Assembly (NCBI GenBank): GCA_003225335.1
Contig: QHZE01000430.1
Span: 1 to 34,019, forward strand
Origin: Acidobacteriota bacterium
GTDB lineage: Bacteria; Acidobacteriota; UBA6911
Length of the DNA stretch: 34,019 nt
Direction: 5' to 3'
The position numbers and the translations under genes were made by a program. The first letter of the stretch is position 1; each line of letters starts with the position of its first letter. The notes under the pieces are model-generated. The model ran no database searches, was not told where the DNA came from, and saw nothing but the letters and a program-made list of their open reading frames with translations. Below, piece after piece: positions 6,442 through 21,539 of this stretch.

Positions 6442-6460
6442 TGCTGGATTTCCCGGGTTC

Positions 6461-6518
6461 GGAGTTCAGGCTTTAGCCTGCACTGAATCCGTGCAGCCCG
6501 AAGGCTGAGCTCCAAACC
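6461..6518. repeat. Paired palindromic intergenic repeat (TTCAGGCTTTAGCCTG family)
   Basis: GGAGTTCAGGCTTTAGCCTG opens the copy, and a complementary half (GCAGCCCGAAGGCTGAGCTC, then CAAACC) closes it after a linker of about 12 bp. Each half is itself a small palindrome and the two halves can pair with each other. Confidence 0.85.
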
Positions 6519-6544: not shown

Positions 6545-6645
6545 GTTTTTTGGTTGCGGCTATGCCGCGCCAGGTTCATCTGTGTTCATCTGTGGTTTCT
6601 TTTGGTTGCGGCTCCTCTGCGCCGTGAAATTCGTGGCCAGTTTTG
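6545..6645. repeat. Mosaic of GGTTGCGGC hairpin, TTCATCTGTG tandem and AATTCGTGGCC fragments
   Basis: TTTTTTGGTTGCGGCTATGC forms a GCGGC-tat-GCCGC hairpin. It is followed by TTCATCTGTGTTCATCTGTG, a second GGTTGCGGCT, and AAATTCGTGGCCAG. Each fragment recurs in other gaps of this window, in other combinations. Confidence 0.7.
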
Positions 6646-6649
6646 ATTC

Positions 6650-6708
6650 GGAATTCAGGCTTTAGCCTGCCCGGGCGCAGGGCAGCCTGAAGACTGAACT
6701 TCAAACCC
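6650..6708. repeat. Paired palindromic intergenic repeat (TTCAGGCTTTAGCCTG family)
   Basis: GGAATTCAGGCTTTAGCCTG opens the copy; GGCAGCCTGAAGACTGAACT then TCAAACC closes it. It lies about 60 bp before the first possible start of the transglycosylase gene, so it may be part of its leader. Confidence 0.85.
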
Positions 6709-8040: not shown

Positions 8041-8046
8041 AGATTC

Positions 8047-8104
8047 GGAGTTCAGGCTTTAGCCTGCGCGGGCGCGGGGCAGCCTGAAGGCTGAACTTCA
8101 AACC
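8047..8104. repeat. Paired palindromic intergenic repeat (TTCAGGCTTTAGCCTG family)
   Basis: GGAGTTCAGGCTTTAGCCTG, a GC-rich linker, GCAGCCTGAAGGCTGAACTT and CAAACC. It lies between two converging genes. A further GGTCGCGGCTGTGCC hairpin fragment (about 8138-8152) ends a few bases before the stop codon of the next gene. Confidence 0.85.
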
Positions 8105-15804: not shown

Positions 15805-15960
15805 GGAGTTCAGGTATGGAGTTCAGGCTTCAGCCTGCACGGCCTCAGTACGGGCTCAAGCGTGAACTCCCAACCAAAGACCACGAGATCCTTTGTGCGA
15901 GCATGGAGTTCGGCTTTCAAGGCCGCGGTGCGCCCGAGCAGGCTGAAGCCTGAACTCCAC
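15805..15960. repeat. Two paired palindromic repeats (TTCAGGCTTTAGCCTG family) in tandem
   Basis: One copy spans about 15816-15876 (GGAGTTCAGGCTTCAGCCTG ... GTGAACTCCCAACC) with a partial GGAGTTCAGG just before it. A second spans about 15904-15959 (GGAGTTCGGCTTTCAAGGCC ... GCAGGCTGAAGCCTGAACTC). A 118-bp inverted-repeat element follows directly. Confidence 0.8.
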
Positions 15961-15978: not shown

Positions 15979-16096
15979 GGTCGTGAGAAAAAATGTAGCG
16001 TCCCGCACTGGCGGGGCAAAGGTCCTGTTGACGCAAAAGGAGTTGTCGAAGCTCACATGTCCCGCGGCACGGGCGCTACGATTTTTTCTCACGACC
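15979..16096. mobile_element. 118-bp inverted-repeat element, copy 1
   Basis: Begins GGTCGTGAGAAAAAATGTAG and ends with the complement of GGTCGTGAGAAAAAATCGTA. Inside are two short hairpins (CCCGC-actg-GCGGG and CCCG-cggca-CGGG) flanking a core that contains CAAAAGGAGTTGTCGA. A second copy of exactly the same length lies inverted at 18587-18704. No open frame inside. It is best described as a small non-autonomous element or a structured intergenic repeat; the enzyme that would move it is not in this window. Confidence 0.8.
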
Positions 16097-16104
16097 AGCG
16101 TCTC

Positions 16105-16175
16105 TGCGGTGAGGTTTTTGGTTGCGGCTTTGCCGCTCTGTTGTTCATCGGTGTTCATCTGTGGTTTCATTTGCG
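16105..16175. repeat. GGTTGCGGC hairpin and TTCATCTGTG tandem fragments
   Basis: TTTTTGGTTGCGGCTTTGCC (16115-16134) forms a small hairpin and is followed by TTCATCGGTGTTCATCTGTG and GTTTCATTTGCG. The same order of fragments is seen near 6550-6600. Confidence 0.65.
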
Positions 16176-18446: not shown

Positions 18447-18586
18447 GGCGGCATTCTAGCGGTGGGTTCGGCGGCTGTCAAATCTGAATGGGACGCACAA
18501 GATTTCGGTTCCGAATGATCGCCCGACGTGTTATGGGAAGCCAAGCTCAAGAAGAATTCAAGGACTTTATTCACCACGGAGACACA

Positions 18587-18704
18587 GGTCGTGAGAAAAA
18601 ATCGTAGCGCCGGCGTCTCGCCGGCATCTGAGCCTCGACAACTCCTTTTGGGTCAACACGACCTTTGCCGGCTGGAAGCCGGCGATACATTTTTTCTCAC
18701 GACC
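18587..18704. mobile_element. 118-bp inverted-repeat element, copy 2 (inverted relative to copy 1)
   Basis: Ends GGTCGTGAGAAAAAATCGTA and the complement of GGTCGTGAGAAAAAATGTAT. Read on the minus strand it aligns with copy 1 over its full length. Its hairpins are CCGGC-ttcca-GCCGG and CCGGCG-aga-CGCCGG. It sits inside a CCACGGAGACACAGAGTACACG repeat; ACA is present on both sides (18584-18586 and 18705-18707), and removing the element plus one ACA restores a continuous host repeat. Confidence 0.8.
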
Positions 18705-18955
18705 ACAGAGTACACGGAGACGCACGGAGAACCCTGATGCCTCTGTGAAATCTCCGTGCTTCTGCGCGCTTCCGCCGGACCCGAGCACCTGCTGCTCGGT
18801 TTGCTTCGAAACGAGCGCTCACTGGCAACCACGATCCTTCATGAGCACGGTCTCGATCTCAGCAGGGTTTGAAGGAGCGGTAGCCACGGCTTTTTTTGAC
18901 AGAGTACAGGTTCATCTCGGGCATAATTTCAGCTTGGTCTTTACCTTCGCATCTC

Positions 18956-19698: not shown

Positions 19699-19761
19699 GC
19701 GGCAGTTTGTACCTGGCATTTGAGGTCGTCGCATGGGGTGCATTTCAAGGCAGTGAGGTTT

Positions 19762-19815
19762 GGCGTTCAGCCTTCAGGCTGCACGGACCCGGTGCAGGCT
19801 AAAGCCTGAACTCCA
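19762..19815. repeat. Paired palindromic intergenic repeat (TTCAGGCTTTAGCCTG family)
   Basis: GGCGTTCAGCCTTCAGGCTG, a short linker, then GCAGGCTAAAGCCTGAACTC. It lies in the leader of the LarA-like gene, about 65 bp before its start codon, and in translation reads as a false N-terminus ending RLKPELH. Confidence 0.85.
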
Positions 19816-19879
19816 TGCGCCGCGCCTGTTGGAAACTACCGGCTGGAGTAGTACGATAGCGGGCCAAGGAGGACATCAC

Positions 19880-21413: not shown

Positions 21414-21480
21414 TCGGAAAAATCCTTGCCAGCTGCTATGGACTTCCCTCTGCGTTCCCCGCGGCTCTGCGGTGAGGTTC

Positions 21481-21539
21481 GGAGTTCAGGCTTTAGCCTG
21501 CTACGGGCGCAGGGCAGCCTGAAGGCTGAGCTTCAAACC
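21481..21539. repeat. Paired palindromic intergenic repeat (TTCAGGCTTTAGCCTG family)
   Basis: GGAGTTCAGGCTTTAGCCTG, linker, GGCAGCCTGAAGGCTGAGCT and TCAAACC. This is one of the best-preserved copies and is nearly the same as the copy at 8047. Confidence 0.85.

Follow-up and report, generated by a model that had tools for sequence, protein, structure and literature searches.

The 118-bp element that occurs twice in the window, a 34,019-nucleotide stretch of Acidobacteriota DNA (contig QHZE01000430.1, positions 1 to 34,019), is very probably a MITE that bears the 16-bp ends of an IS1182-type insertion sequence (IS), is likely inserted in trans by the DDE transposase of such an IS and holds a head-to-head pair of GTAG-tagged REPs as cargo. 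It defines a new family of IS1182-type MITEs with interchangeable REP hairpins; each kind of element is already known, and the nesting of REPs within a MITE is the interesting part. The copies share their ends, are flanked by 3-bp duplications and prefer one degenerate repeat as the target; a complete IS1182-type element in another bacterium is alike in ends, duplication and target; and the REP pair is found both alone and between ends of another type. As to function, the likeliest account is a selfish MITE with REP cargo.

The two copies lie at 15979-16096 and, inverted, at 18587-18704, each exactly 118 bp long, and share the 16-bp ends GGTCGTGAGAAAAAAT and a core, as an earlier note on this DNA had described. 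The note was also right that the hairpins of the two copies differ in sequence and retain their pairing; the stem differences are real. The features of the window are as follows.

15979..16096, + strand: MITE copy 1, 118 bp, with the rarer (CCCG-type) hairpin allele
15979..15994, + strand: left terminal inverted repeat of copy 1, GGTCGTGAGAAAAAAT
15995..16017, + strand: REP 1 of copy 1, GTAG tag and hairpin TCCCGC-ACTG-GCGGGG
16018..16058, + strand: core, the spacer separating the REPs of copy 1, which includes AAAAGGAGTTGTCGA
16059..16079, - strand: REP 2 of copy 1, inverted, hairpin and then CTAC
16081..16096, - strand: right terminal inverted repeat of copy 1
16097..16113, + strand: target repeat remnant AGCGTCTCTGCGGTGAG beside copy 1
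18587..18704, - strand: MITE copy 2, 118 bp, with the common allele
18604..18625, + strand: REP of copy 2, GTAGCGCCGGC-GTCTC-GCCGGC
18667..18688, - strand: partner REP of copy 2, inverted, with GTATCG as the tag
18584..18586, + strand: 3-bp target duplication ACA, left of copy 2
18705..18707, + strand: 3-bp target duplication ACA, right of copy 2
18575..18720, + strand: target repeat CACGGAGAC-ACA-GAGTACACGG, split by copy 2
6456-6518, 6645-6707, 8042-8104, 15813-15875, 19757-19819 and 21477-21539: double-hairpin repeat GGAGTTCAGGCTTTAGCCTGC...

At copy 1 the 3-bp duplication is not intact (flanks TTC and AGC). Copy 2 is one of 16 letter-identical copies in the genome, an identity that suggests recent amplification. 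Folded as DNA, both window copies were more stable than all 200 of their shuffles (z −7.6 and −7.8), and each adopts a single long rod as its minimum-energy fold, since the arms of one hairpin are also complementary to those of the other. Among the seven elements folded, L096, which has one hairpin of each kind, reached a z of only −0.8, with 42 of 200 shuffles folding equally well. Separately, the window holds at least six copies of the other, intergenic double-hairpin repeat family (last line of the list) and several copies of short-period repeats, GTTCATCTGTGTTCATCTGTGG and TTTCGTGTAATTCGTGG (window positions 6574, 16143 and 23559; 13504, 16873, 26440 and 31964).

The window belongs to a MAG of 7.54 Mb in 795 contigs (G000), from the same family as Acidobacteria nzgw75 (G012). 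A BLAST-type search of G000, in which 40 of 101 candidates were scored, found at least 41 places covering most of the element, and the 16-bp end had 102 matches with at most one mismatch, compared with 0 for the reversed control. Elements were sought in the regions of these 41 places and of further end matches among the 100 listed: facing ends with at most four mismatches were paired by a script, two pairs spanning at least 130 bp were discarded, lone ends were set aside and one element, from L121, was added. Among the copies fetched, this yielded 59 gene-less elements with both ends, spanning 96–121 bp, of which 52 are 108–121 bp long and seven are 96–97 bp long with a different interior. The flanking 3 bp are identical in 45 of the 58 elements with both flanks present, compared with 10% expected when left and right flanks are drawn from different elements; the counts at other flank lengths were 24 (1 bp), 0 (2 bp), 2 (4 bp), 2 (5 bp) and 0 (6 bp). 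The exact duplication is missing in the other 13 copies, copy 1 among them.

Most elements sit in one degenerate repeat, CTCYGYG / TCTCYGYGGTGA, which also occurs uninterrupted (CTCYGYG-TCTCYGYGGTGA) in 104 exact copies in G000 (control 0). Their orientation within it is biased, with 30 of the 51 hairpin-type elements inserted one way, eight the other way and 13 unclassed under a strict motif. The target repeat, CTCYGYGTCTCYGYGGTGA, is present in high copy number in its own right and often forms inverted pairs with starts 50–190 bp apart; 14 inverted pairs with starts at most 200 bp apart were counted by hand among the 100 matches listed. We know of no name for it. Terminal repeats, 3-bp duplications and target preference together thus identify the element as a MITE, and it is short, non-coding and present in many copies, as MITEs are. 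The lone ends in G000 followed up in search of an autonomous copy (L098/L122, L118/L119, L120, L101/L123 and L116/L124) led to decayed MITEs or contig ends. A plasmid search with copy 2 gave no match, viral contigs held six exact matches to the end pattern and none with a partner end, and a search of viral contigs with the protein of a neighbouring gene found nothing.

Downstream of each hairpin, on the same strand, comes the T6 of the end repeat, a terminator-like form that raises the question of a domesticated bidirectional terminator. A terminator-like site was indeed called within copy 2 (18665-18685), and the deltaproteobacterial elements of 127–130 bp described below also have a hairpin directly before ATTTTTT, with hairpins other than those of the window; in ten loci searched, these hairpins were not seen outside the elements. 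However, no terminator was called in copy 1, and the scan total of six compares with a shuffle mean of 4.3. Nor does gene context, assessed with a home-made codon-bias gene caller for 58 copies (L121 left out), show any enrichment in placement: 22 copies lie between tandem, 14 between divergent and six between convergent genes, four lie in a predicted ORF and 12 at stretch ends are unclassed, as compared with nine tandem, six divergent and five convergent among 20 element-free gaps. A terminator role is therefore unlikely, and is not supported by these data.

A scan of a genome collection with the 16-bp end returned at least 89 stretches, many of them chance-like, and one coherent set that lies in the same target repeat. 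This set comprises elements of 107 and 127–130 bp in deltaproteobacterial MAGs, elements of 99 bp in Bryobacterales palsa_243 and lone ends in Solibacteraceae SbA4; one end/target pair is common to Acidobacteria and Deltaproteobacteria. Two of the 127–130-bp elements (L219 and L175) are located outside the target repeat, L219 being flanked by TCA on both sides, and nzgw75 has the same ends with flanks that differ from the target repeat. Three same-end MITEs, L105 (97 bp) and L186 and L202 (99 bp), lack the REP pair, and the interiors of L105 and of L186/L202 both contain TTTCAACGACTT by eye. In nzgw75, five elements (L130, L133, L136, L139 and L141) of 236–265 bp have the same 16-bp ends with 0–3 mismatches and enclose about six hairpins, including GGCGCGAAGCGCC and GGCCCGAAGGGCC. 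By eye, their flanks are palindromic, GCGTCGC-NNN / element / NNN-GCGACGC, with no direct duplication, as if they had been inserted in the loop of a palindrome.

The same ends also delimit a complete IS in Deltaproteobacteria DP_1 (L224). This element of 1,907 bp (338-2244) has ends with zero and one mismatch to the 16-bp end, is flanked by GCA duplications and lies in the same target repeat. Its single gene encodes a 532-residue protein that matches the IS1182 transposase model NF033551 at 407.6 bits (cut-off 270) and contains the Pfam domains DUF772, DDE_Tnp_1 and DDE_Tnp_1_6. A partial IS in CoA_1_bin.89 (L173) shows an exact end that again lies in this target repeat, and its contig ends inside the transposase; the C-terminal 187 residues present are 79% identical to those of L224 over 184 residues, and the same genome also holds a 107-bp MITE. 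A similar end is found on a Microvirga plasmid, where an annotated IS1182 transposase, 46% identical, has perfect inverted repeats containing GACGTGTGAGAAAATCC. Thus, the 118-bp MITE has its ends in common with an autonomous IS1182-family element, complete in L224 and partial in L173, in other bacteria. Exact ends were found in only two of the 396 genomes of the window's phylum, the window's own and nzgw75, and are therefore not a common sequence.

A parent transposase was sought in the same genome. The L224 transposase had no match in G000, and the IS1182 family model gave six weak matches there, the best at 95.2 bits against the cut-off of 270; the search thus found no parent in the 795-contig MAG. 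Multi-copy ISs are often lost from MAGs. Since the window's assembly yielded no such transposase, we infer mobilization in trans. In the window's phylum, 52 of the 396 genomes match the L224 transposase, the best-scoring at 43–45% identity over about 300 residues, and the ten loci examined among 30 fetched have no end within three mismatches. Within the phylum to which the L224 genome belongs, matches were found in 57 of 297 genomes; the hit ranking second to L224 itself is 55% identical, and relatives at 52–55% identity (L269, L270 and L271) show no such ends at the loci inspected. Three end-bearing genomes (G399, G403 and G012) contain IS1182-type genes with other ends (L241, L240 and L242), and a fourth, G398, has no IS1182 family match. 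In a protein search of metagenome contigs that scored 7,998 candidates, 3,586 relatives of the transposase reached E ≤ 1e-50. Among the 50 top-ranking rows, 30 have a longest contig of at most 2.4 kb by hand count, little over the length of the IS, which would fit an IS that breaks assemblies and drops out of MAGs.

The missing transposase in G000 and the other ends of the IS1182-type genes in end-bearing genomes would also suit a MITE of another DDE family, whose 16-bp end resembles that of L224 by chance. We consider such a coincidence quite unlikely, given that L224 matches the MITE in end, 3-bp duplication and target repeat and L173 in end and target, and that exact ends are confined to the two genomes of the phylum named above.

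The interior hairpins are GTAG-tagged REPs arranged as a head-to-head pair (REPIN), with an unpaired GTAG by the hairpin, inverted pairing and a high copy number. The REP GTAGCGCCGGC-N5-GCCGGC has 115 exact copies in G000 (control 0), and among the 100 listed, 61 lie in known elements and 39 outside them (hand count). For REPs outside the elements, 28 loci were fetched (place C358 was not fetched anew). Five have an inverted REP pair without the 16-bp ends (L301, L302, L304, L305 and L316), eight have the pair or half of it within a second end type, ...GTGTGAAAAAATT / GTAG...CTAC / GATTTTTTC... (L298, L310, L312, L313, L315, L318, L320 and L322), decayed ends of the first type surround the REPs at L303, L308, L317 and L321, and the remaining 11 are single, damaged or ambiguous. 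The second end type, which reads AGCGTGTGAAAAAATT / GATTTTTTCACAGC around the same REPs, likely represents another MITE family of a related IS.

The presence of a REP pair bears on what moves the unit. The earlier note had proposed, as one of two options, a DNA hairpin recognized by a single-strand transposase of the TnpA-REP type, and this stands for the hairpins, which are REP-like, strongly conserved (7 of 850 letters changed; see below) and of the GTAG class that RAYTs are thought to move. It does not seem to extend to the unit as a RAYT substrate, since the 118-bp unit with its ends and 3-bp duplications fits an IS1182-type DDE element. The head-to-head GTAG-REP interior, the REP pairs without 16-bp ends and the two Y1 transposase genes found in G000 (L142 and L143) would suit a RAYT that moves the element in one piece as a REPIN-like unit. 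However, 3-bp target duplications, which the 118-bp unit has, are not expected of RAYT single-strand transposases; same-end elements of 97, 99 and 107 bp have no such REP pair; a DDE element, L224, has the same ends; and the REP-associated tyrosine transposase with the same ends that the note had suggested looking for was not found, as neither Y1 gene is flanked by the 16-bp ends or by these REPs. We regard a RAYT as a very unlikely mover, and rejected it because both Y1 genes have other flanking repeats by eye. One of them (L143:1171-1881) encodes a 236-residue Y1 transposase with GGGGACAG flanks / GGGGACAGGCTACTCAAYTCCC inverted repeats, and the other (L142:1489-1944) one of 151 residues that is bordered by hairpins of another REP type (CCCAGGGC and GCCCTGAAAGGGC). 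The L143 flanks fit the TIRYT motif GGGGWSAS as given in PMC3733652.

The note had further read the paired stem changes as a sign that the folded form is kept by selection, and had proposed building a covariance model. In an alignment of 32 distinct copies, 94.4% of the cells pair, both partners have changed in 35 cells, and all 500 shuffles and all slid versions have a lower covariation score. Nevertheless, only six pairs, five from the hairpins and one from the ends, vary on both sides, a number reached by 229 of the 500 shuffles. The two-sided cells in the hairpins stem from one alternative allele, carried by five copies at hairpin 1 and seven at hairpin 2, whose loop differs too and which is present on two core backgrounds. 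The common allele shows no two-sided changes; six one-sided changes keep a wobble pair and three break the pair. Among the 25 distinct copies in which both hairpins are common, picked by their loop letters (the seven outside this set all carry the other allele), 7 of 850 letters are changed in the hairpins, 39 of 799 in the ends and 93 of 1,013 in the core; the hairpins are more conserved than either. The copies are related by descent, and the change counts are therefore not independent events.

Comparisons of individual copies at gap-free positions revealed that the hairpins differ as blocks. Between copy 1 and L064 there are 2 differences in the 84 positions outside the hairpins and 19 in the 33 inside. 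The reverse holds for L059 and L060, whose hairpins match at all 35 positions while the rest shows 12 differences in 76, and for L060 and copy 1, with none among 34 hairpin positions and 17 among the 84 outside. L096 and L108 each combine the two kinds of hairpin. Such block differences on near-identical backbones indicate that the hairpins behave as blocks moving between backbones. The paired stem differences are thus whole-hairpin differences and give no evidence for selection on an RNA fold; the 'compensatory' changes likely come from whole-hairpin swaps rather than from slow coevolution of a folded RNA. As the loops are conserved too, REP-level conversion or recognition of the sequence is a better fit than the stem alone. 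A structured RNA (riboregulator or attenuator) with two stems kept by selection, the other option in the note, is accordingly most improbable: the stable folds of both window copies, the well-conserved hairpins and the pairing and covariation figures speak for it, but the window has no Rfam match at the gathering score, L096 folds no better than its shuffles, the copies are inserted at many loci with target duplications and, apart from the covariation score, which alone exceeds the shuffles, the alignment shows no independent compensatory changes in the stems.

Taken as an IS1182-type MITE with REP cargo, the element would be moved by an IS1182 transposase, one not found in this assembly, and its hairpins would be replaced as whole cassettes via recombination or conversion between REP copies. 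IS1272, an IS1182 member, is reported to replace stem-loops without target duplication and to target inverted-repeat structures, and the paper cites other work for palindrome targeting by some further members of the family (PMC5678879). By analogy, an IS1182-type transposase might act on hairpins as well as ends, exchanging stem-loops between REPs and MITE interiors; we offer this as a tentative and rather doubtful extension. If so, the ends would frame, as exchangeable cassettes, any palindromic repeats that a host happens to contain: GTAG-REP pairs here, CCGTTCG-type hairpin pairs in Deltaproteobacteria and chains of about six hairpins in nzgw75, and this would account for the unexplained REP dimers inside palindromes of other genomes. 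DDE-driven MITEs and RAYT-driven REPINs, usually held separate, are joined here in one mobile unit. The element also carries a warning, in that 'compensatory' stem differences among repeat copies can reflect cassette replacement.

A literature search, in which three forms of the target but not the end were searched by letters, found no description of the end sequence or the target repeat among the papers listed. Of the closest known systems, the IS1182 family is alike in its ends: 16-bp terminal repeats also occur in IS1272 (in one model) and ISPse1 (16/16). Unlike IS1182-family elements, the 118-bp units are gene-less; the L224 transposase scores far above the NF033551 cut-off. The duplication is 3 bp here, whereas IS1272 makes none (PMC5678879) and ISPse1 makes one of 4 bp (PMC3281130). 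The element resembles bacterial MITEs such as RUP, NEMIS, ERIC and MITEPsy1, described as non-coding units of 70–300 bp with terminal repeats, presumed to depend on a parent IS for their movement (PMC3733652, PMC3189936); MITEPsy1 has other ends and another parent (PMC3189936). In contrast to these four, the interior here is a separately occurring REP pair, with stem cassettes that vary between copies. RUP, NEMIS and ERIC also differ from the 118-bp element in their ends and parents. GTAG-REPs and REPINs, as described by Di Nocera et al. (2013, PMC3733652), are alike in the GTAG tag and hairpin, the head-to-head heterodimers with different loops and the many copies; here, however, the dimer lies within transposon ends, and no RAYT flanked by these REPs was found in G000. 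In A. variabilis and H. neapolitanus, the same study noted dimers of REPs lying within long palindromes, which it left unexplained (PMC3733652); a transposon identified by its ends, duplication and target provides a possible model for them. Finally, IS elements are known to insert into REPs, targeting palindromic repeats (Tobes and Pareja 2006, PMC1525189); there the IS lies within the REP, whereas here the REP pair lies within transposon ends.
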